A stretch of DNA of 64,000 bases from Allodiplogaster sudhausi (taxonomy: Eukaryota; Nematoda; Chromadorea; Rhabditida; Diplogasteridae), in the NCBI GenBank assembly GCA_945643635.1, contig CALZFC010000017.1, positions 157,001-221,000 of the forward strand, in the 5' to 3' direction. Made by a program: the position numbers and the translations under genes. Positions 3,300 through 40,200 of this stretch are shown one piece after another (positions within the stretch are counted from its first letter, which is position 1; each line of letters starts with the position of its first letter). Under the pieces are notes generated by a model that worked only from the letters and a program-made list of their open reading frames with translations, ran no database searches and was not told where the DNA came from.

Positions 3300-4850
3300 C
3301 GTGACAAGAAGGAAAGAAAGACTATCGATTAAGAACTGTCATTTTACCAATCTCCTAGTTCCTAGTGATACTCGATGTCCTAGGTCCCGGTTTGCTTGAC
3401 GAATCGTAAAATTTTTTTACGAATCGTCAAAATTCCTTCATATCGCTAGCTAGGTAATATGAAGTAAGTTTGGTCATTTGTCCTTTTAGTTTTTAGTACA
3501 CTATCAGCTTGATCATTTTCGATGAAACGTTCTCGTAATATGGATATCAGGAAATGGAAATCAAACCAATCGAATGAGCCTATCAAGCATGCAATGATTG
3601 AAGAACAATCGGAGAGTTTTTGAAGTCAACAACCGAAATCTATTCAAAGTTGGTGCACTTTATTGATTGTGAGAGAATAGGTATAATAAATAAGAGGAAA
3701 AAACCATGGAAATGGCAATGAATGGAGAAATTTAATGTGGTTCTTTGCAAAAGAGAGCTCGAAACCGCATGGACAAAGTAACAGCGTCTTTAAACAGCGG
3801 CACAATTGCAATATGTATGTTTGTATTTATGCACATGTGTCCCAATTCAAGTTGTCGTTGGCTGTGATGGATGCAGAGATGTTATGGCCGAGCGCCGCAT
3901 TAAAGATATCATATGTCCCCAAATAAAAATAAGTATGTACATAAATAGAGCACACCTCTGATCCGGATTTATGTGACCGGCAAGATCTCATTCAAGCGCT
4001 TGCGCTCATATAAATTTCAAACGAGCTCACACTTCTGGAACGTAGCCAAAATGTCGAGTAGCAATTGTGTTACTATCGCCTTCATTCTGCTATTATTCTT
4101 CTTCTTCAACTTGTCCGATTCAGCGATAACTGCATCGCTTATCGATGAATCGGACAACGCTGAGATTAAGGTATGCTGTTCTTGACGAATTTGTTGCTGT
4201 AAACAATCTCAATCTAGCAAATCTCATTTGGTGTCTCTCCTTCTCCTAAACTCCTTCTCTTTCTCTTTCTCTCACTCTCTCCCTCTCGTCGCTTTCTATC
4301 ACCCTCAGTCTCTCTGACTCTCTCTCTGTCTCTCTCTCTCTTCTCTCCTTCTCGTTCTGTATCTCTCTCTGCCCTCGTTCTCTCTATTTCTCTCTCTTAC
4401 AGCATGTCTTATAAAAGAGTATTTCTGCGGGAGAACGAAGAACGGAACGGGCGACTGCATATGCGACTAGTAAAGAGAAAGTATAAAAGCTTTAAAAAAT
4501 ATTTTAATCTATCTACATACATACCTCTCTCACTATATCTCTCTTACAAACTCACATTAACAAACTGTATCTATCTTTCTTTCTCTTTTACTCTCCACCT
4601 CTCTCATATACACTCTCTATCTATCATCCTCTCGCTCATACTCTCTCACTCTCTCAAACTCTCTCACTCTCTCATACTCTCTCACTCTCTCAAACTCTAT
4701 CACTCTTTTAAACTCTTTCTCTCTCACTCTTTTCCAAGCATCCTCTTGAGTGCGAATGATGAACGGTGACGAGTTGAGGAAGAATGAAATATCTTCATCA
4801 ATTTCGATGAAATCTTCTTGCAATATGCCATCGAGAAGTGAAACCAAGTC
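3300..4850 (+). pseudogene. broken copy of the serine protease 5' end (copy A)
   Basis: This block matches 27490-28930, the promoter-proximal part of the protease gene, including non-coding DNA. Exon 1 is 4051-4170 and starts MSSSNCVTIAFILLLFFFF, a clear signal peptide, then [12 protein letters not shown] and a gt donor. In the intact copy exon 2 ([19 protein letters not shown]) begins after ...tttctaacaattttcag. Here the corresponding stretch near 4422-4427 reads ...tttctgcggg, so about 19 bp that include the whole 3' splice acceptor are deleted. A remnant of the activation-site exon is visible near 4754 (RMMNGDEL). No catalytic exon follows; the sequence runs into the end of the minus-strand sulfotransferase. 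It could at most make a short secreted peptide. Confidence 0.7.
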
Positions 4851-15908: not shown

Positions 15909-16245
15909 CTGAAAGAAAAAGAACTTTTTGTCTGAAGTCTCAGTGATTCTGAAAAAATTTTTATAGGCACAAAATGTTTTGGCGCGTATAGATATGTATA
16001 TTATATATGTATGCATATATCTTTATTCATACTTGGTACAAACTCTAACGTTTTTGGCACAAGAAAGCGACACGGCTCATGCTGCAGAGAGTGTAACCGG
16101 TTTGAGAAGAAACACTACCTTTCTCGTGCCATTCTCGCCTTGCGAGCCGGCATCGCTCTTCTCGCTCACGGACATTGGCTCCCTGACGCGCGATTTCTGC
16201 TCACCCGAGAGTCGCCGGTCTTACTTATATTCGAACAGTTTTAAG

Positions 16246-17052
16246 AGGGAGAGGTAGTGAAGAGAGGGAGAGTGGGAAAGTTAGTGAAGAGATGGAGAGA
16301 GGGAAAGTTAGTGAAGAGACGAAGAGAGGGAAAGTTAGTGAAGAGAGGGAGAGTGGGAAAGATAGTGAAGAGATGGAGAGAGGGAAAGTTAGTGAAAAGA
16401 GGGAGAGAGGGAAATTTAGTGAAGAGATGGAGAGAGGGAAAGCTAGTGAAGAGATGAAGAGAGGTAAAGTTAGTGAAGAGAGGGAGAGTGGGAAAGATAG
16501 TGAAGAGATGGAGAGAGGGAAAGTTAGTGAAAAGAGGGAGAGAGGGAAATTTAGTGAAGAGATGGAGAGAGGGAAAGATAGTGAAGAGACGAAGAGAGGG
16601 AAAGTTAGTGAAGAGAGGGAGAGTGGGAAAGATAGTGAAGAGATGGAGAGAGGGAAAGTTAGTGAAAAGAGGGAGAGAGGGAAATTTAGTGAAGAGATGG
16701 AGAGAGGGAAAGTTAGTGAAGAGACGAAGAGAGGGAAAGTTAGTGAAGAGAGGGAGAGTGGGAAAGATAGTGAAGAGATGGAGAGAGGGAAAGTTAGTGA
16801 AAAGAGGGAGAGAGGGAAATTTAGTGAAGAGATGGAGAGAGGGAAAGCTAGTGAAGAGATGAAGAGAGGTAAAGTTAGTGAAGAGAGGGAGAGTGGGAAA
16901 GATAGTGAAGAGATGGAGAGAGGGAAAGTTAGTGAAAAGAGGGAGAGAGGGAAATTTAGTGAAGAGATGGAGAGAGGGAAAGCTAGTGAAGAGATGAAGA
17001 GAGGTAAAGTTAGTGAAGAGAGGGAGAGTGGGAAAGATAGTGAAGAGAGGGA
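16246..17052. repeat. 27-bp minisatellite arranged in a 135-bp higher-order repeat
   Basis: The basic unit is 27 bp (gagggaaagttagtgaagag plus seven bases). Five variants recur in fixed order to give a 135-bp higher-order unit, about five to six units long. In one plus frame each unit reads xERGKVSEE and the five variants differ at fixed residues (RESGKDSEE, MERGKVSEK, RERGKFSEE, MERGKASEE, MKRGKVSEE). Because 27 is divisible by three and the unit lacks stops, both strands stay open for about 290 codons. That is a property of the repeat and no proof of a gene. It lies about 340 bp upstream of the first visible sulfotransferase exon. Confidence 0.92.
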
Positions 17053-17229
17053 AGATCTGCCATCTTTTCTCAGGTCCTCCTCGGATTTTTGTCGCTGTCA
17101 TTTCTTTTTGTCAATCATGTATTTCGATGAAACGATATCAGGAAAGAAAAACAATGAGCTGATCAAACATCAAATTATTTAGTTTCCGAAATCAATTCAA
17201 ACTTTTGTAGCGTCCAAATTCCGTAATGA

Positions 17230-21150: not shown

Positions 21151-24100
21151 CTCTGGTTTTCCCGAGTGAGCATAATTAGATTTGAGACGAATTTGAAGCC
21201 TAATTAGGCAAACGTCAGCCTAATTTAGGCTGTTTTTTGCATCATGATATTTGGTGTGCAACTACCGTAATTTTTTGGTGTTGCGATAAATTGAAATAGT
21301 CACCTTGAGTTGGAAATGAAAATGAAAGCGGCTAAGAAAGCTGGAAATGTTATATCTTGGTGATTTGCGTGTGTGTGTGTGATTTGTTTTTTTTTTAAAT
21401 AACGTTTGTTGTAGATGGAAAGGAGGTTCGTCCAGACCAAGAAACGGAAGACTTTGCGAGAAGTAGAAGCCCGAGTGGAAGAAGCTACTCTAAGGAATGC
21501 CTCGGATTCAGTGGAAGAAGCTGATGAAGAAAATGACGTGGATATCATGGAGACATCGAGTGGCGATGAGGGCGAGAACACCTTTGTCGATGATTTGCTG
21601 ATTACGGAGGCTCGGGCGGATAACGAAAGTCAGATGATTTTTTTCTATTTCATTGTTATTTTCTCGACAATGAAAGTGACCTGTTTTTTTTCCTTTTTTT
21701 ATTTCATCTTTTTTTAAATGTGAATGCTAGTATTTTGAACCAACCGTTATCTTGTAGGTGTTTGCGGGGACAGTTTATCGTCCATGTCTTCCCTAGTCCT
21801 TTGCCAGCTTCAACACTTAATTGACAGTGCATTCAGCCAGGCCGGTTTGTAACTTTTTTTTCGTTAAATTTGAAGTATTGTGGTAAAGAAAACTTGCGTT
21901 TAACTATATGTTTTTTCAAGTAAATTAAAGTTACTTTATTTAATGTGCGCAAAGCTTGTTGATGATACTGTGCTATTCGCACAGGATTGGACCTTTATTT
22001 CGCTGGTCACTTCAGTCCACACGAAAGGTTTATGCGTGCATTCTTGAACAACAAGGCGTATCTTGCGCATAGTCTAAGCCTCTGCGCCCTCTGCGCTCGT
22101 GATATTGACAGGTATTTCAATTGATGTTTTCTTATGGGTTGAATTGTAATGTATTTCGTAGTTGTTCCTGCCAGGATGGCCCTTCAAAGAGCACAGTTGT
22201 TCTGGCGAGCATAGCAGAGCTAGTGAACCGGCTACTAAATGGTCACTACGCACACATTCGCACTCTGCATGAGAGAATAGCGTCCGGCGTTATCCTTGAC
22301 ACGCCTTTGGCGTGGCCGTTCTTTCAAAACAGAGTGAAAGTTACTGGGGGCCCAGTGCAGCCATTGAGCTTCATTTCCAGTTGGGACGGCGTACGGTTAA
22401 AAGGACATTCTAGGTTAGATATACCAAAAATTCAGCTCCACTGTAACCACAGAGCTTTAATCACTAAACATGAATTCAGATTAAAGTGTTGGCCTCTGGG
22501 GTTAATGTCGATTGACATGGATGACGCGCATCGGGCTAGGGAAGGTGCAGTGTTTCTCGCAGCAGTATACTTTGGTGCAGCTGAACCGTCCACTGCCGTT
22601 CATGACCGCCTGCTACGCTATGTTGTGCGAGAGTTGGAATGCGTAGCGCAGTGGAAAGGAATCCCAATCGACGCTAAAGTGGTTACGGGAGCGCACGATG
22701 ATCCGGTATATGACCAGTATTTTTTGTTGTTTATAACTTATCTAAAGCTATTTATTGTCAGGCCAGGCGTAAGGTGTTTGGCTTGCGCCATCATTCGTCC
22801 CCTGCTGCTTGCTTCTATTGCTATGACAGTGGGACAAGAATGAAACTGCATCCACCGGAACTATGTGTAAGTCGTACATTAAATAGGTTTAAATATTTAT
22901 ATAAATTATTATGTAAGCCCGAATTTCCCGAGTGTGCGGTCCTCTGACGAAGGATTGTCCAGACGGATTCCATGTAGGCGTCGAATATTCCTTCGCTCAC
23001 TCTGTTCACGAGATGCATTTCGCTCCAGTTGACTGGCTCCATACAGTACAAGAAGGGGCAATGGCATTGATTGTACAAGGTTATTTAATGTAATGAGTGA
23101 ATTCTGTACATTAATAATACCCTTTAGAAGTTGTTGGATCGATTCTGCAGGGCGTTAGGCCAAAACATGAGATATTTAGCGCTGATGCATCAGAGGTTTT
23201 TTCAGCATTGGTTCCATGGAATTCCACTTTGCCATGTTCTCTGTAGGTGCATAAGTTGCTGGATGATATTATGCTTCCTTCATTCTCTCGGCCTCTCCCT
23301 CGTTCCCTTTCCGATTGTACAGGCACCGAGAAAGAGGCAGTAGGTTTTGATGAACCAAGATATATCAAACTCGAGTTCGAACAATTCTTCAGATGTTCAA
23401 CAGTCTTGTTGTTTCGATTGCGATGACGGGCGGGATTTCTCCAACAGCTTCATTGATATCATTTACTCTTCACGCCATAAACAGAGTTAGTTTGTAGCAA
23501 CAAGAATAGTAAATGAAAATGAGAATTATCTTTTAAGGAGATGGTCTGTCCCTTCAGTTCAAGCGATTTGAACATGCCGACAAGAGTGGAAGTCCTCTGC
23601 CGTGGCCTAGCCCTCGCAGTTCAAGAAGACTGCCCATTTCTTCTCTCCGGGATCAAGTGGCATGTCAGCTTGTTTTTTGTTATTGGGGATGCAAAATGAT
23701 TATTTAATTTTGGTTTCCAGACCATTTGTTTTCACCTGGCAGAATTGGTCCGTGTAATGGGAAGCCAATACCCACTGTCGACGACTTCTTTCGAACATTT
23801 GCATTTTGTTATGCAAAAATGCCTGAATCTCAACGTCACTCGTAATGTAGGATTCTTCATGCTTAAGAAGTTAGAATTTTTTGTTTAAAAAAAGTTTAAA
23901 ATAGGAAGTAACATGTTTTGTTTAGCACTGCCCTTATCCAAGAGATCCGTCACGAGGCGCTACGTCGCTCTCGAGCTGACTTTGAGAGCATCGAGGTCGA
24001 CCGCCCATTGAAGAGGCTCTGTTCTCGACTCACTATCGAGCTTCCTCGACAAGTTACAGTGCCGACTGATGATCAAGTACATGCCTTTTTTATATATAAA

Positions 24101-28263: not shown

Positions 28264-31200
28264 ATGTCGAGTCGCCATTGTGCTACTCTCACCTTCATTC
28301 TACTGATATTCTTCTTCTTCAACGAATCAACCTCGCTTATTGACGAATCGGACAACGCCGAGATTCAGGTTGGCTGTTCCAGATGAATTTATTGATGTAG
28401 ACTGCCATATCTCATTTAGCTTCTCTCTTTCTGCTGCACTCCTTCTCTCCATCTTTTCCCTCTCTATCTCTCACTCTCTTCTCTCCCTCATTCTCTTTCA
28501 ATCACTCTCTGTCTCTCTATCATATAATAAAAGAGTATTTCTAACAATTTTCAGGCAGTCTGCGGGAGAACAAAGAGCGAAAAGGGCGAATGCATCTGCG
28601 ATGAACCAAGAGAAAGTATAAAAGCTTTAAAAAATATATATTTTCATCTGTCTACATATACCTCTCTCACTCTCTTTCTTTCAAATTCACTCAAGCAAAC
28701 TCTGTTTCTCTTTTTCTCCACTCCATCTTTTCCTCTCCACCTCTCTCAAATATACTCTCTCTCAGTCTCTCTCTCATACTCTCTCACTTTCTCTTACTCT
28801 CTCTCATACCCTTCCCTCTCTCACTATCTTCCATCTTCTTGAGGGCGAATGATGAACGGGGACGAAGAAGAACGACCCTGCTCGGCTGGTTGTCGCGGCG
28901 ATTCATCTTCCTCCGGGTATCTTTTATTTTATTTTTCTTATTTATTTATTTATTAATTATTTCTAATTTATACATATACGACAGTGGGAATTAAAAAATT
29001 TAGTTTTTATCTGCAATCTTCGCGTAAGCTGTTATTTTTGGCACGAACTTAGAATATTCCACTGTTTGCCATTATTGACGATCGTAAAAATTGCCTCATC
29101 ATCGTTTTGACAATTTTCCCGATCGTCAAAAATGTCAAACAGTGCAATATTCTAAATCCTTGCCAAAAATAACAGCTTATTCGAAAATTGCAGAAAAAAA
29201 ACCAAATTTTTTTATTCACACTGTCTTATATGAATGACTCGACTCCCGAGTTTGTGTATGTGTGGGCCATGAGCTCGCCAAGTCCATGTGCCATCATCAT
29301 GACTCCCGCGCCGGACAATAGAGTCGCGAAATGCCGCCCTGGCTATAGCGCCCCGAAATCAGTCTTTCATCAAAATTCATTCTCTGTTTCAGAATCCACA
29401 TGCACGGGCACGCTCATCTCCCGCAGACACGTCGTGACAGCGGCGCATTGCTTCGCACGTCACCTTAACGAGACGATCTGCAGACAGCAGCCAGTGTTTT
29501 GGGGGGTTTTTTTAACCATAGTTTTGAGTTTTTTGTGCCAGCGTTTTGAGTTTTTTGGGCCGGGGTCTTGGGTTTTTTTATCCTCTGTTAGGCCAGCGTA
29601 TTTTTATAAGGTTTTGGATTTTTTGTTTAATGGGTTAGTCTTTCGTGCCAGGGTTTCTTTTTTTTAATGCCAGAGTTCTGTTTTATGGTTCATAGCGGTC
29701 TCATCCCTTTTTTGACATGGTTTCTAAAGCCACATCTTTAATTTTTAATTAAGACAATTAAAAAAACGAGGAAGGTAAAATTAACTAGTTAATTAATTAA
29801 AATCAGCAATCTCACCGGCCCACTCGTGGAAACGACAGTCATCGCGGACGAGCACTGCAGTGATCCGGGATGCGACGGCAAACGACAACGAGGTGTAGTC
29901 CGAGTCAGCCTTTCTCTTTCTCTCTTTTCTCACTCTCTCTCCCCTCCCTCTCTCTGATTCCATATCTGTCTCTCTACTCTAATGAACTTAATCTCCTTCA
30001 CCATTACTCTTATACACTCTCTGTTCTGTTCATCACTCGGTCTCTTTATCTTTCCCGCTCCGGCTCTCAGCATTTACTTTTTTATAACCATTTGCATTTA
30101 TTCTAATAACATCGTCGTACGAAACATGTATTCAATTGAAAAGGTTTCCCTTCCATCCACCGTGCTGAATTGAGCATGCAACATTGAAAACTTGCAAGCG
30201 AAAGAGGATGACATTGCGATTCTCGAGGTCGACGAGGTAGGGCTGCGTTTAAGGAAACAGAAACTCATGTTTGAATTGGCGCCGTTTCCCCTGAATAATG
30301 AGAGGGTGGCAGTTTTCTAAGCTTCTTCAAATGAATTTACACAACCGAAAAGGTACATTTGAATTGGCGTTATTTCACCTGAACAAAAAGGTTCTGTCAG
30401 CACATGCTTGATTCTTGAAAGGAATTTACGGGAGCCCGATTCGCTTGCTTGCCCGATGTCGACGATTTGGAGCTGCCGGACGAGCTGTACGCCTTTGGCT
30501 ACGGCGCACTTGGATCACGTAAGTGCCCTGCGATTAAAGAGGCTGTCCAGGGACCCTAAAATCTGTCGTAATCCTCAAGAAAAGAGCATGTAATAAGAGA
30601 GAAGCATGGTTGATTTTTGGCTCCATGGACAACCACTTTAGTTTCGACGGAAAAAACATTACTTACACTTAAAATGCTCCAATTTATCGTATGCCATTAA
30701 AAATGTTCTCGTTTTTTCAACGCATTTGTCTAGATGGTTCAAATGTTGTTGTAGAGCAATAATTATCAGTGGAATGGGCAGCCTACCAAACCACAACTTG
30801 TGTGTCCATTTGTTTTCAGCGATCAATTCCAATCGTGATTTTTCTCTCTCTCTCCAGTGCCAAATACGCATGGAAGCTTGAAATCCATGAAGTGGAAGCC
30901 GGCGGTCTGCAAAGAGACAGCGAACGCGCGTCGCCTCTGCCTCAAGCCAGTGAAAGAGGACCAGCTCGGATGCACGGTGTGGGCTTTTCATGCAATTTAA
31001 GGAAAAAGAAGGAGAAAAGTATACTTATTGAAACAAAGTAAAATTCCTCTCTACAATACAACGCTGAATGTTTTGCAGTAAAAAGAGAAGGAAGTAACGC
31101 TTTTGAATTATACATACAATTTCTTTCCTTATAACAGTAATATAAAACAAATTGCGCACTCTTCGTTGTTGTAAGAAAAAAAACGATAAGCCTCATGGAC

Positions 31201-34200
31201 AATTTGAATTCCTAATTAGGGTGATGATGTCTTCTTACAATTAGGGCGACAGCGGGTACGCGCCCCTCGACACGAGTCGCGGCGCGCGCTTCCCGCCGAC
31301 AGCCGTCGCCGTCTACTCGTTCGGCGCCGCACACAAGAAAAAATATCATTGAATTTCCGAAATCGCAATACACCTTGGGTGAATACCATTTAAAATTATA
31401 GATGTTCGCGGAAATTTAGTTCGGAAGCACTAGTATTGTGCAATGGTAAAAACCGCAAAGGATAATACTTTACTCTGAGCCCTACCTCAAGTGCGTCAGA
31501 TAGTACTCCTTGGCGCAGTTCCATCTTGCGCATATATGGCGTCAAGCGGCAAGATTTGGTTGCAATTCAGTACTAGGCTGCAACCATAGTTTTTTTTACT
31601 TAATGTGTTTCATAGCTGATTTTGATAACTTTACAATGAATCCGCTTTCCAGGAACGTGCATACGACGCGTTTCAGTTCATTCAGGGCGGCTCTGCCCCT
31701 TGGACACTCGCTTAGCAGGTTGGTTGAAAACGAATGTTGTTAAGGGTTGTTCTTCTTGCTAGTTCTTGTTATATTTTCTTTAAATTTTGGCTTAGCCTAT
31801 TATTCCCTCAATTTTATATGTTTAGACTTCGCGGTGGTAAGGTGCGTTGGGCGGCCACTCGAGACGGAGGCAGTGGACCGAAAAGTGCAAGGTATGCCTG
31901 CTTTGAGAATATTAAAAGTTAACTTGTGACTGACTGACGAAAGTTGTTAGCCTTATTATTGAAAGTGTGAACGATATGCTTTTTTGTTGCGATGTTAGTT
32001 AATATGCCTAAAATGCTTTTTTTGCCTTTTTTCTGATTTGATATTTTATACCTTTTTTTTACATTTAAAACTAAACTTCTTACCCCACGCATTCATTTAC
32101 TTGCAGTATTTTCTCGGTCGAATGCTATAGCGGCGCAGCTGTAGCTGAAGGTGTTGTACCTAGGCAAGACCCGGCCTTTATTAAGGTTTGTTATAGTCTC
32201 TTTTGGTTTAATGTTTTCGAGTAATTTAACTTTATCCTTTTATTCTTTTTTATTTACTCTACCCTTTATATATCCTTATCCCTTTATTCCCTTTTATATG
32301 CTTAACCTTTATTCCCTTTTTTACGTTTTTATTTAGACTTCACCGCGGTAAGCAGTGTGTTGCCGCAAGGAAAGAAAAGCTGACGCAGGAACGAGAAGTG
32401 TTAGGTAAGTAGTTGAAGTTAATGTGTTAGTAACTTACGAAGGGTTTTGGCACCTTTTTTATTGAATAACTGTTCGGAATGTTTGTCATTTCGGACTACG
32501 ATAATAGGTAATGTAAGTTAATTTTCTTTGCCATCCATACTGTATAGTCACTCGTTGAATGAACTCGTATAAAAATTGTCACGATAATTTAGATGGAGTG
32601 CCCAGTACAAGGATGTACTGAATGGATCGAAACTAAGAGAATGCTTCTTGAACACCGGCGCCATGATCACAACGGCTCGGGCACGTTAATCTGCAAGCTC
32701 TGCCCAGTCAACAGCCGACTTTCCACAATACAGAAGCTCGAGCAACACTGCGCCAAATATCATGTTGGGACGTTATTATCAGGTAATACTTCTAAGTATT
32801 AATATGAAGTAACTTCACACCTATTCAGTAATTACATGACGTTATTAATCTATTAGCTTAATAGGGTATTTCCAGGGGTTGCTCGCGCCGCACCTCCTCG
32901 ACCACCCATACCCCAAGCTGAATCTAGAGAAGAAGACGAGTTTTCTCCAGCTGCCGATTTCGACGTCGATCTCGAGGAGGACAACAATCATGGTCCGTTT
33001 ATTTGTTCCACATCTTTTTAATATATTGGAGCATGAAGTTTTCACTTAAAGGAACCGAACACGGAATAATAGTACAGTATCCAAAATGCCACGATTCAAA
33101 TCTGCGGCAACAAAATTTGGCCGTTCTGTTTTCTATTTTCCGGCACCCATAATTTTGATGCACTCAGTGCACCATGACATTTTGACCCCACTAAAATCAG
33201 CGTGAAGTTTTATTTCGCCGCGTGGCATCGTGTAATCTTTATCGTTTTACGTCGTTTTTGGTTTTAGTTTTGATTCTTATCATGGATATTTAGTTTTATC
33301 ACTTAAGTAACCGCTTATCCAGTTACTCCGCCATCGTTGGATCTGCTGGTCCCAATGCGTGAGCTCTATTTAGATGCGTGGTTTCGTTCTTTTTCATAAT
33401 CGAGTTTTTGTTTATTTCTCATTGAGTCTTTTAGTTTACTATTCTTCGATTTGAACTATGCTTGTGGGCGACTTGTTGAGGTCCAGTGCTGGCGTCCAGG
33501 AGATGGCTCGTTCCCTGCAAAGCCATCCAAGCGAAAGATGTGAGGCTTGCAATATTTTGCAGTAAGTAAGGTAAACTATTTATTCAAACCATTTTTAACT
33601 CATGGATGATTAAATAACGAAATATTTTCTACTCCAGCACGAAATGTTGATTATTTCTAGCAATGAATTCGTAATTAAGAGAAATAAAAATCAAAATTCG
33701 TCGCTGAAATAGTCTTCTTCATCAATCATCTTCAGTGCGCGGCCTAATCCATCTTCTGGCTGGTCCATCTCGACATCGCTGCCCTCAGCGCCTTCTTCGT
33801 CGATGCCACTCTTCACCAACGCTGGCGCAGCAGGCATGGCACGACGAATGCGGTATGTTTCCGCCATAACATCTTTTCTAAATTTTATTACGATTGCAAT
33901 TTGACGTTTGCTTTTTCACTCCCGGCATTTACCTGTACTGATTGCTTGAGCTGGAGTAGACAGCGCGATCCCTATACTCCTTGGTTGTCTTGTTGTAAAT
34001 TTTTTTCATTCCACATTGCGAAATTGTTCCTTCCTCGATCTCGCGCTTCCTTCCGTTCCACGCCATAATTGCTACCATCATTCGAAGATTTGTACCCTCT
34101 TCAGAAAAGTAGTGATCCTTAGGCAGCCAGCAAGCAGAGAAACCATGAAATGCTTCCACCTGAACTTTTTCCTTTCTTTCATGTTATCTAAAGCACTAAA

Positions 34201-37200
34201 ATGTGAAACTTTCTTCGGATGTTGTCATAAATGGAGAACACTTGGAGACGTCGTCGGCCTGGCTGTGAAAATATTCATGTAGCCACTTCCTCGCCTTATC
34301 AGTCAATCCACTGGCATGAGGCGCGCTTGCGGGAAGTGGACCATGTGAACAGCCAGTAACCGTGGGAAACATTTCGCTCTGAAACAATCAAGCTGTATTC
34401 TTTACCGCTTTAGCAATATTTCTTGTAAGTTTTATACCTGCGGCCAGTCGTGTATCCCATCAACGTGATTCAGTGTTGACAGGAAGAGCTGGCGCGCTAG
34501 CTGTCCATCCCATTTCGATACCGTGATTGCGTGCCATGTATGATTGATTAGGCTCCTTGTCCACTTTCTTAGCGTTTCAAAGGCTCTAGTCTTCGTCTTC
34601 TAAAAGGAAATTTTGCCTTTTAAAATAACCAAAGATTTTGTGACTTACATTCATCAATGTCAGAGTAAGGTTCCTTGTGAGGTGCCAAGAGTCGTGAAGA
34701 TGCTTGACTTTGTAGGGGCGAAGGGCAGCAGCGACGGATCTGCTTCGGTCGGTCGTAATCGTCTCTATCGGGGACTCTTCCGGGTCCCCAAGGTCGGCAA
34801 GGAGGCTGTTGATCGCCTTCTTCATTCCATGCGGCTCCATCCGAGTGGAGATATAATCTGGTGTGTTTTTTTATATAATTAGATTTGTTTTAATTTGAAA
34901 AATTCATAATTTAAAAAATTAAATTTTATATTTTTTTTTATGATTTACCTGTTTCCTTCTTGTGAGTGATACTGTAGGACAATATGACGTTGTAGGGTAT
35001 GGCCATTAGTTCGTATCTGCATATCATTGCGCTGTATCCTCTTGAGTCGTATTGTCCATCGCCGCTTAGGTTTAGACGTTTTCCCTATAAACAAATTGCG
35101 AGTAGTACTCTATTCAATTTGCATACTTGGGAGATGTCGTCACGAATCCTAGACATCCAATAATCGCGATCCCGGCGAAAGACGTTTTCAACTGCAAGTG
35201 AACAATAGTGACGACGAATATTGTGGAATGCCGCCTTCTGAATGAAGGCTACGCCAAGGGTCTCCATAGTCGGTGCAATGGCCTAAAATCTTTATTATCA
35301 TTTGGTGTTATCTCTTATTTTCCTTACCCCGTGTCCATAGGTAGTTGTAGTGATAGCGGACACCAAGTCCAGGGACACTTCGCGCAGCTTTTCCTTCGAT
35401 GAGTTGCCCGCAGTGGGTATCTTCTTACTACTTGCCCACGATCTCTTGTGTGAGCTGTTGAGTACGCACTCAGAAGTGACATGTAGAACAGCTCCTTCGG
35501 CTCGGATAGAAACCTAAAAGTTCTGTAAACATAAAAGAATTATATGGATAGTTATGACTGACCTGGCATATGTTTTCACGGCCACATTTGATGCAGTCAC
35601 GGAATAGCTCCGCTAATAGTTCGATGTCCACGAGTGCATACTTGGCACTAACATTATTCAAATTGCAGGATGCTTCAACTGAAGGCGCAAATGACGACTC
35701 CTCTTCCTGAACGGTGTGGTTAGAAGGTTATTGATCTCAACGAATGCGAGGTTGGCCATTTTTCTTTCTATCTAACTTCTGTATCCTCACTGGACTCCCC
35801 TCTGTACAAGGGTGTTAGTTTAAGAGGATTTGGAGTTGGCATGAAGTTAAAAGTAGATCCTTTTGAGAGTGTGTGCCTGCCGTTGCAATCTCTTGATAAG
35901 ATTGGCATTGAGGGACTCGGGAGAGGCGCGAGAGGAGGAGCCGAAGCCGGAGGAGAAGGTTGTGCAGCGGCAAGTGTGCTCGCGCCAAGAAGTGGAAGTC
36001 GGAGAGGAGGAAGGAACCGCGGCGGAAGCAGGCGAGAAGGCGGCTGGCGTGTAGGATAGGGCTGCCCGCCTGCTTGACTCCCCCTCACTCGAGCTGTAGG
36101 TCCCTTTGAAGGCGTTCGAATTAACTTTTTTCTCAACCACCGGAACCGGTACTTCGGGTAATCCCGGTATACGGTGGCTTTTGCTCGAGTACCAATGATG
36201 ATAAAAAGTGATTTTCTTACTTGCATTCTGATGACAGCCGAAGGAAGGGGCAGAACATCTTTTAGAAGACGCACTTTACTCGTAGACGTTTCGTAGAACG
36301 AGTTAGGAGGAAAGTGGATCTTGCAAACGCGCGGGTCCTCGTAGAGGGAGAGGTTGTGCCGGAGAGCAGCTTCTTCGTGGATGTCGATGTTGGAAATAGA
36401 TCTTATCCACGAATTAGACTTCTGGGCAGTAGACGTGAAGGATGTCACATCATACTGCTGCTTGAAGTCGCCGCATACGACACAGCGAAAGTTATGCACC
36501 ATAGCAAACGGGTAGCAATGGGCGCAGTGACCCTTTTCCTTTTTCTTGTTTCAGAACATCCTCACTCTAGTTTTCTGATCTATTGCATTCAATTATCACG
36601 TAAAAAGCCATTTCGCTCGGTTCATTCATGTCATGTTAGGTCACAAATAAGAAAACTTCCACTTTATCACGCATAAGGATGCAACAATCGAGAAGGTATT
36701 CACCAATGTATCTGAACATCCAAAAATCCAGTGTATTGGCCATTTTCTTCGGGCCACTTTCTCCGGATTGCAGTGACCATACAAGCAGGTAGTTCGACCC
36801 GTTGACCACCACCGAGCGGGCCCCAGATATCAGCTGCTAGATATCGATAGATCCCGTATCGATAAGACCTAAATTCCAAGTAGACACATTATCATGTCGA
36901 TGAATTATTACACACATGTGCTTTGTTTATGAAGAGAAAAGTCATCTTGCCTGTTAGTAGGCTCTTGGTGCCTCTGGCCGGTTCGTTCAGAGACTTCGTA
37001 CATGCGAGCTGCGGCCCTGGCAGCCCGCATATCGAGGTACACCTCTTGGAATTGTCGGCACTCGGCGACACATCCAACTGCTTCCTCTCTGAGGAGCTCT
37101 TGCAGGAATTCTCCTAGCTCGCGACCTCGCAGCAGAAGCCGATGGGGATTCTGGAGGACGGCTCTGCAGCAATACGAGGTTGAGTAATTGGAGACGACGC

Positions 37201-40200
37201 TGCAGCCTCTACAGCTGCACCGAAGAGTCTCCGGCGGAGTGTCAGAAGAGAATATCTTCGACGCTCTCTCTGTGTCCTCCAGGCGGCGCCTCATCTGCTG
37301 AACCCCCTCTTCCAACTCGTCTCTAGTTGGGTCAAACATAGATGGATGTGTAATGCCATCCATTTTCTGTAAACATTCCATATAAGCAATAATCATATGT
37401 AAATGAATAAAGGATATTATCATTCCATTTATGCTTGGAACATACATACGAATTCTAAATCACAAAATGTTCATGTGATCACGTAGCCATCCTGCATGCT
37501 ATTCCAATGCATCCTACGAACTATTCGCACCAAATTTCGAGTTCAAAGACCAAATGTGCAAGAGTGCGCTGGGTGCACGTACACTCGGGCCAAATTTTTT
37601 ACAGTATTCCATCTGAGGAAAATGAGATTATATCGGCTTAGACTTTATCAAATTCAATTCTTGTTTCACTCATCGATCTTTCTAGTCTGAACGGACAGAC
37701 TGATTTAAAAACATAAGACATTATATATTCCGTGTACGGCTCCTTTAAAAGATCTACCGTACTTTTCTATCTGCTTCTCTCGTTTTGCATATTATTTTCT
37801 TTTGCATTTCGGTAGTTTTTTAGGTCCCCGGACAGCTTCTTTAAATTCGTGTTTTTAGGGTCTGCTGATTTCGGAGCGGAGATCAGAAGATTCTTCGCCC
37901 AGCAAATGGGCCGAGGAGTCGCTCGATCCACCCTCGACAGTGTCTCCACGCTAATCGACCACGCACTCCGCATTGGTGAATATTGCGATTCTACATTGAT
38001 TGCTGAGGCACACGCGGCGAATTCTTCATGCTCCACCCACTACAAAAGGACCCAATCTCTGTGCCAGAGTGGCGATGTGTTAGCCCCGCAAAAATGTCAG
38101 ATGGGTGTTATCCAGACGACAAAGCGCGATTGTAATGGCGAATCCAGGCGTGTTGAGCAAGGCGAAAACTTTTATGTCTTACCTCTCGCTGATGTGCTAA
38201 GGCAAGCTGTTGAATTTTTGAATTGTCATGGCCTCATTAACTCGTGCAATAGTCCTCATATTTGCTGTCACCAGCGAGGAGAACGTTTAAAAACTATCTC
38301 TGCTGCATCGCAAGTCACCAATGCAACTGTGCTCCCTTTTCTCTTGTACTGTGACGACGTAGCTCCTGGCATATATGCGAAGAGCTTCGACATGTCCCGG
38401 ATGGTACCGATGCTTCGAGAAAGTTACTCGAAGAGACACGGTTAGCATTGCTTTTAAGTAAAATTTTAGGTTTTTAAAATGATGTCTAAACATTTGATTA
38501 TCCTAGTTTAATGTTTTAGTAGTCTATGTAAGTGTACTTGTAGAAACTACCGCCTCGATCTGTGTCGGAGAAAGGGGCCTTCCATTGCAATTCAAGAGAT
38601 TCGACAACTTGCATACCCAGCTCAGGTATATAATCATATTTTGCATCGCATGCAATAACATATTGATGATATCAAAGAGCAATTCATGTTTTTCCTTCAT
38701 AATTATAGTTACTATCGGACTTCGACCACGGCTTCAAAGTGAACACTCGAGAATTCATCCTTCAATGGCCTCGGATTCGTGCCTATCTCAACGGTCTTCT
38801 CGATAGAAATTTTTCTCCTGCTGAAAAGGCATCTATTTCCGCGTTGAACACCGCGACTGGTACAGGTGAGTCAATAAAAATAAACAAAATACCTTTCGCC
38901 CACTTGAGCACAATTACTTTACAGAAAGGTAGTAACATTTCATTACAGAAGCACTTTCGTTCCAAGCGGTACTAGCCGTGCTTGCGCTCTTCAAAAAGTA
39001 CTGTCCTCGCAAGCAGTTGGCTCGAGTTGGCCGATTCTTCTCGACCTTTCTAGTCAGCCTTTTATAACTTTGTGCAACTTACTGGTTATGGCTTAAAGTA
39101 ATTAAAGAATTTTACTTAATGGTATCTCTTTCCTTTTTTGACTCTTCTTTTGCTGCTTAATTGAAAATTCTCTGATTGTTACAGCGTGAACCAGACTCAG
39201 CACACGTGGTCAACAAGCTTTGCGAGATGCAGTTTCGGCAGCCCCTTGTTGTGCTTTACGGCCAGAACACCACGCAGTTCTCCGTGTTTTGTAACGTGAG
39301 TTCTTCTTTTTTCAGCATAATTTAGCAACAACACGAAAATGAATTAGCGAAAGAGTTAAAATGCAAAAATATTCCACTAATATCCTACTTCATTTGCTAC
39401 AAATAGCTTCGATTTTAATTTCCTTTTTGTGATTTTTTTATATTATTCCAGGGAGTCGAGATCCTGTGTGAAGACTCGTTCATCGAAGCGGTTACTGTGG
39501 CGTTGGCATGCCATTTCATCTTCCATCTCCGCTTTGACGCCGAAGTTGCCGATCTTTGGGGGCTCTTCTCTACCCTGATTGGCGCGCCCTTCACTCTCAA
39601 GTCGAATACTGCAATCAACCTCGCCGACAGCATCAAAAGGCATTTGTCGTCTGATTAGATTCCATTTCTTATTTAAAGAGTACAAATGTCTATTTGCATT
39701 TATCAGAATCTATTATATTTTGAACTAATTAGTTTCGCTAGCAATTATTAATTACTTTGGTTTCATTAAACCACTTACAGTTGTTTTGTTGCTTTGTTGT
39801 TGTTGTTTTTTTTGCCTGATTGGTTTCCTTAAACCACTTTCATTGTTGACTTTCAATCTTTACCTGGTCAATTTTCGATGACTCAGGGTTCTGTTACTTT
39901 GCAGGTAAAAGTACTTAGATGATGATTGAAATAAAAAGTTGTTGCTTTCGTTATGCAATTCAAAGTGGAATGAAAGGGGCGAGGCTAATCGATTGGCCAG
40001 TGAAGCGACAAGGAAGGAAGGGAGGAGGGGGGGGGGCTGCCAGCGCTAGCTCGAAAATACCATTCCGGCAGGTGTAATTCACGCCGAGCCGAGTTTTTAT
40101 GGTATTTGACCAGTGGATCTGAAACAATAGTTTGAAGTTGCTCAGTTTTAAAGTAATTACCCCCAAGTTTTGTGGCGATGGTATTTACCATCGACGAGAC

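Follow-up and report, generated by a model that had tools for sequence, protein, structure and literature searches.

Here, we analysed 64,000 nucleotides of the genome of the nematode Allodiplogaster sudhausi (the window, C17:157001-221000; C-numbers denote contigs of the 351.8 Mb assembly that was searched) and found in it a Kolobok DNA transposon at 33046-37748, 4,703 bp long including both flanking TTAAs. The element carries on its minus strand a multi-exon DDE transposase with a THAP-like exon and, upstream of it on the same strand, a two-exon gene at 37363-36700, KolX, whose product of 193 amino acids is related to the C-terminal ballast of the channel protein P2X7. This gene had been pointed out by a sequence-only reading of the window, and its coordinates proved right and its frame open. 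The link between KolX and P2X7 is already published; what we describe is a nematode instance of it and not the discovery of the link.

A TTAA-bounded element with two genes

The element ends in near-matching inverted repeats, whose inner 16 bases agree at 14 positions next to the TTAA sites at 33046 and 37745, and the residence of KolX in a TTAA-flanked Kolobok element, as read from the letters, was borne out. The termini have the form AG...CT with TTAA at both ends, i.e. TTAA plus AGGAR, and thus show the 4-bp TTAA duplication and the RR...YY ends of Kolobok, which are repeated at other sites. A pattern made from both element ends, with up to three mismatches allowed, matched only those two ends in the window and nothing in shuffled sequence. 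Among the 39 TTAA pairs that enclose KolX within 33000-38000, the element's own pair scored best and the runner-up reached 9. The end score is not decisive alone, because 21 TTAA pairs in the whole window reach at least 14/16, several of them within other inverted repeats; decisive is the recurrence described below. A chance inverted repeat was rejected on the grounds that the end pattern is unique in the window and that the ends recur elsewhere.

The transposase core scores 27.5 bits against PF20700 (cut-off 26.5) and contains, in order, GDGQYDS at 170, TTDRS at 242, HDSWH at 262 and VEAFH at 390, with the catalytic residues assigned by motif only. By these motifs and by PF20700, the core has the DDE of Kolobok with C/DxxH between the second D and the E, a signature described for this superfamily (PMC9587614; papers are cited here and below for the parts of their text that were available). 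GCSHG at position 340 of the core and histidines upstream of it, noticed by inspection and unscored, may be compared with the H2CH zinc finger between the second D and the E. The THAP exon reaches 20.7 bits against PF05485, below the cut-off of 23.9, and its C2CH and W/F/P pattern was recognised by inspection.

KolX and the ballast of P2X7

KolX shows the motifs CSCRGC, CC, LGGGQR...PAC and GQYTGF in the order that had been read by eye (C-x-C-x2-C first), and its longer form of 199 amino acids has seven zinc-type cysteines (C55, C57, C60, C71, C72, C104 and C173). The longest open run in the six frames of 36900-37400 is 163 codons, a length reached by 5 of 1000 first-order random sequences. 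Against the Pfam family P2RX7_C (PF20478), the window protein scores 34.8 bits (E=2e-8; 35.8 bits in a second run) with a cut-off of 23.5, and no match to this family was obtained with any of five control sequences (KolX shuffled four times and reversed once). The absence of a profile match, which the sequence-only reading had named as evidence against the homology, did therefore not occur. P2RX7_C was the sole Pfam match, and no P2X channel domain was found in the KolX protein. All ten KolX proteins of a set from this genome (the window's included; 10 of 18 gene models, near-duplicates and imperfect models having been left out) match P2RX7_C, the best at 1.8e-11, and a profile of these ten placed P2X7 chains first among PDB sequences with E=7.5e-5, the others following at 8.1e-5, 0.0028 and 0.0029.

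Could the likeness to P2X7 have arisen by chance in a small open frame that happens to contain cysteines? With a single sequence as query, the PDB match to P2X7 is indeed weak (E=0.023 and 0.013), and a lectin repeat obtains better whole-sequence values (0.0011 and 0.00021), though no single stretch of it passes. Set against this are the score above the cut-off in the window protein, the matches of all ten members, the first rank of P2X7 in the profile search and the retention of the cysteines in the aligned relatives, which are 49-89% identical to the window's protein. We rejected chance likeness, which we regard as extremely improbable, on the P2RX7_C matches of all ten members and the failure of the shuffle and reversal controls.

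In a single-sequence alignment over P2X7 residues 500-591, 24 of 92 positions are identical, and C506, R546, Y550, P570, C572, R578, P582, G586, Y588, G590 and F591 are common to both proteins. H547, R574 and K583, which belong to the guanosine nucleotide site in P2X7, correspond to Y, V and E in KolX. The two proteins differ in spacing, with 32 residues from CC to the next cysteine in KolX and 7 in P2X7, and the W that precedes CxCx2C in P2X7 is absent from KolX, as is any channel. The vertebrate spacing PxWCxCx2C and LCCRx3GxC is not found in KolX; this motif describes the P2X7 form. Of the nucleotide-site residues, invertebrate forms keep only R546 and R578 (PMC7016195). KolX keeps these two and not the others and therefore behaves like the invertebrate group described there.

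The sequence-only reading had described the domain as joined to a channel in vertebrates, a description that is incomplete, as stand-alone forms are known: Nanor and invertebrate proteins, including those of the nematodes Haemonchus contortus and Ancylostoma caninum (PMC7016195). These Nanor and invertebrate ZCD proteins (PTHR36981; Rump et al. 2020, PMC7016195) are, like KolX, short and stand-alone with a C-terminal ZCD, and they keep R546 and R578. Here, KolX lies inside element ends, whereas the main text of Rump et al. 2020 (PMC7016195) has no word beginning with 'transpos', and hence no link to an element was drawn in that main text.

Recurrence and mobility of the gene pair

Is the pairing of KolX with a transposase a common feature of this genome? 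A DNA search with the KolX region gave 18 genome matches, of which four were complete at 99-100%, counting that of the window, and another two were complete at 87-88%. A search with the transposase core gave 166 matching stretches; those listed were grouped by eye into at least 46 loci, and all 46 were examined, in DNA that does not always extend to both element ends. KolX lies upstream of the transposase at 41 of these 46 listed loci (18/22, 14/14 and 9/10), a recurrence in other Kolobok elements that the sequence-only reading had held out as a possibility. The 46 loci are not all independent, because the copies C1a and C1b are probably one insertion and several others are perhaps recent duplicates. 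Identity of KolX and identity of the transposase to the window copy are correlated over 12 loci (r=0.95), a crude value that includes deleted and duplicated copies.

C1a and C1b face each other with mirror-image flanks (C1:7518762-7533038); an inverted duplication, or a palindrome arising in assembly, probably makes one insertion appear twice.

The five exceptions comprise three internally deleted loci, one that breaks off and one that is rearranged. C82 (0.75 Mb), C6 and C51 (0.77 Mb) have lost parts of both genes. The match of C109 to the element (84%) begins at the left end and stops at element position 3352, within the THAP exon. At C95 (0.46 Mb; C95:456000-462764), part of the transposase core is repeated and no AGG/AGA-type end pair was found. 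The sequence-only reading had held that active Kolobok copies lacking the gene would speak against it, and judging from their structure none of these five appears to be such a copy.

The deleted copies at C6 and C51 (0.77 Mb) retain both ends; C82 shows the right end only, its left end lying outside the DNA examined.

The window copy, C346 and C1a are complete, share their ends, each bordered by TTAA, and lie in unrelated flanks; in C346 and C1a, KolX, the THAP exon and the core are all free of stops. The gene pair is also enclosed by two further families of terminal inverted repeats (TIRs), AGGAACAGTCCATGGA (4,925 bp at C245 1.52 Mb, 14/16 end bases matching) and AGGAAGTATCCGACGA (5,023 bp at C51 1.10 Mb, 15/16), and thus lies inside three terminal-repeat families in total. 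Among distant loci, the test for new end pairs covered C245, C51 (1.10 Mb), C35 and C4, plus C95; no new-type pair was found at C245 2.06 Mb, C35 or C4 in the examined DNA, which may not reach both ends.

These data bear on the idea that KolX is a domesticated host gene that came to lie beside or inside the element by chance. Stand-alone ballast proteins such as Nanor, likely a domesticated KolX (PMC9587614), give this idea a precedent. Here, KolX lies within the TTAA ends and moves with them, as is seen at C17, C346 and C1, where complete copies sit in unrelated flanks, and the pair is also found inside other TIR families. We rejected a host gene on the basis of the moving copies and of the pair in other families, and consider it very improbable.

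Constraint on KolX

Eighteen KolX gene models were built, of which three are imperfect: C35 and C10 lack a start ATG, and the splicing of C243 is unreliable. The intron is GC-AG in the window copy and its near copies and GT-AG at the matching place in distant relatives and families. In the comparison of the window with the C1 copy at 5.2 Mb, the ratio of non-synonymous to synonymous substitution rates (dN/dS) was 0.22 (0.11-0.37) for KolX, 0.14 (0.07-0.28) for the THAP exon, which has one stop in the C1 copy, and 0.10 (0.07-0.13) for the transposase core. Over 14 KolX pairs, which overlap and whose values are descriptive, six gave 0.24, 0.12, 0.19, 0.15, 0.16 and 0.29; window versus C16 gave 0.23 at a synonymous distance of 2.1, window versus C58 was saturated, and three pairs without synonymous change gave no ratio. 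The better-resolved comparisons show that KolX is under purifying selection.

Relation to known Kolobok elements

Kojima & Bao 2022 (PMC9587614) reported that Kol0 elements of Kolobok encode two proteins, the second of which, KolX, was matched to the P2X7 ballast. They proposed that P2X7 arose by fusion with KolX, as the source of its tail, and that Nanor is likely a domesticated KolX. Kol0, with Kolobok-1_XT as representative, and the present element share a DDE transposase, KolX, the TTAA target and RR...YY ends, and the published KolX also resembles the P2X7 C-terminus with seven conserved cysteines (PMC9587614). The feature that marks Kol0, a KolX gene in the element, is present here. Our case differs from the available text of that study in its host, a nematode, a group not named in the Kol0 list, and in the intron of KolX (PMC9587614).

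The Xenopus XKol/T2 Kolobok has a transposase with THAP, DDE and H2CH, the TTAA duplication and AGGRR ends (PMC6004289). The present element has the DDE core and candidate counterparts of THAP and H2CH, and the TTAA and AGGAR ends found here fit the TTAA and AGGRR of T2/Kolobok; the term KolX is absent from the main text on the Xenopus elements (PMC6004289). Work on plant-parasitic nematodes names Kolobok-T2 and Kolobok-H, with no KolX in its available text (PMC11118728). In the open-access literature, KolX in this sense occurred only in PMC9587614 among the matches listed, and no paper among them had a nematode Kol0 element with KolX (Repbase lay outside this search). Outside this genome, protein searches found no relatives for KolX or the transposase core, and none in viral contigs; the DUF1258 protein of the window likewise had none, and the protein database therefore says little about this genome.

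Possible role of KolX

Our analysis shows the anatomy of the element, the homology of KolX, several sites with near-identical copies, the repeated pairing of the two genes and selection on KolX. Taken together, we consider it probable that the window holds a Kol0-type nematode Kolobok with two genes, a stand-alone KolX of the P2X7-ballast type and a THAP/DDE transposase, and that KolX is a zinc-folded accessory factor for transposition, which is the likeliest of its roles. As expected for the superfamily and judging from motifs and ends, the transposase would bind the AGGAR ends with its THAP domain, excise the element and insert it at TTAA. KolX would fold around zinc as the P2X7 ballast does and would work with the transposase, e.g. 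by stabilising it or by assembling it on the ends. Because KolX is encoded alongside the transposase, conserved and under constraint, it most likely works for the element; the zinc-built fold that it probably has suggests that it partners the transposase, or the DNA complex of the transposase, in a structural or assembly role.

Several observations weigh against this reading. The alignments with P2X7 pair only C506 and C572 with cysteines of KolX, and the pairing of the other five follows motif order. All 18 KolX models keep six of the seven zinc-type cysteines and 17 keep the seventh (lost in C58), an invariance that is partly by construction because the locating pattern contains the first five; no locus in the set with matches to both exons failed this pattern. 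The placement of the element in Kol0 goes by its gene content and ends. The dN/dS of KolX is approximately twice that of the core, and three close KolX pairs gave 0.47, 0.48 and 0.84, with wide intervals. C109 has neither KolX nor the right end in the DNA examined while its core is nearly open (one stop, four gapped codons), and C95 has no KolX in the 4.5 kb upstream. Many KolX copies are damaged: among the last 24 loci, the cysteine cluster is open at 17 and the tail motif present at 16, KolX at C5 (11.76 Mb) is a remnant only, and the sixth cysteine is lost at another locus.

KolX might instead be a regulator or host-facing factor (a repressor, or one serving silencing evasion or nuclear transport), selected on the element and dispensable for cut-and-paste. 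The weaker constraint on KolX than on the core would fit such a factor, as would C6 and C51 (0.77 Mb), which keep both ends and miss parts of both genes; neither gene therefore need be complete in cis. The close linkage at 41 of the 46 listed loci fits a helper equally, and no result favours repression. We think a regulator unlikely, though much less so than a host gene or a chance likeness.

Returning to KolX as a transposition factor, we speculate, tentatively and just short of calling it probable, that it is an obligatory second transposition protein throughout nematode Koloboks, a module with zinc and perhaps a guanosine nucleotide by which the THAP transposase is licensed or assembled, and that P2X7 acquired its tail by capturing such a factor. 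The published KolX link gives the P2X7 ballast an ancestor and no function, and the functions of the zinc and GTP/GDP sites of the ballast were said to be unknown (PMC9859053). If the proposal is true, the original biochemistry of the P2X7 tail would be readable in living nematode elements. The many diverse pairs of KolX and transposase, some of them near-identical and open, offer natural variation and conserved residues for probing KolX.

Feature coordinates and other observations

Table 1. Features of the Kolobok element (window positions)
Feature	Position	Strand	Remarks
Left TTAA target duplication and terminal inverted repeat	33046..33068	+	AGGAACCGAACACGGA...
DDE transposase core	33691..35706	-	9 exons, 8 GT-AG introns of 42-91 nt, 526 aa without stop
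Linker, THAP exon to transposase core	35707..36220	-	several possible readings for frame and splicing
THAP domain exon	36221..36502	-	CVVC...CKIH; 3' splice choice uncertain
KolX exon 2	36700..36868	-	GQYTGF tail, then stop
KolX intron	36869..36950	-	82 nt, GC-AG
KolX exon 1	36951..37363	-	first six zinc-type cysteines; alternative ATG at 37381 gives 199 aa
Right TTAA target duplication and terminal inverted repeat	37726..37748	-	AGGAGCCGTACACGGA...

The element is enclosed by an outer TTAA-bounded inverted repeat (30534-30606 and 37772-37844; 73 nt, 77%; starting AGAGGCTGTCC and AGAAGCTGTCC), which resembles the ends of the C245/C58 family (AGGAGCTGTCC) and could represent either one non-autonomous Kolobok or a pair of independent insertions. 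This outer pair, 30534/37844, was rejected as the element boundary, since the inner pair sits close around the two genes and is found again elsewhere as one unit. Plus-strand open pieces flank the element at 32593-32802 before it and at 37816-39658 after it (three pieces). The piece before the element looks C2H2-like by eye, and no flanking piece scored above a Pfam cut-off; they could be one gene carrying the transposon in an intron.

Elsewhere in the window, Rfam and tRNA scans gave no matches. The DUF1258 protein lies at 22109-22843 on the plus strand (41.7 bits, cut-off 33.1), and 16187-17182 holds a long frame built of repeats of a short unit (SEERESGKDSEEMERGK...) that is open on both strands. 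The 22-mer that we take to be the nematode spliced leader SL1 occurs 1,821 times in the assembly (1,188 forward and 633 reverse), and its reversed control 0 times, which marks the host as a nematode. Dense SL1 arrays, many at 460-bp spacing and in both orientations, were found at C1:10148768-10204176.

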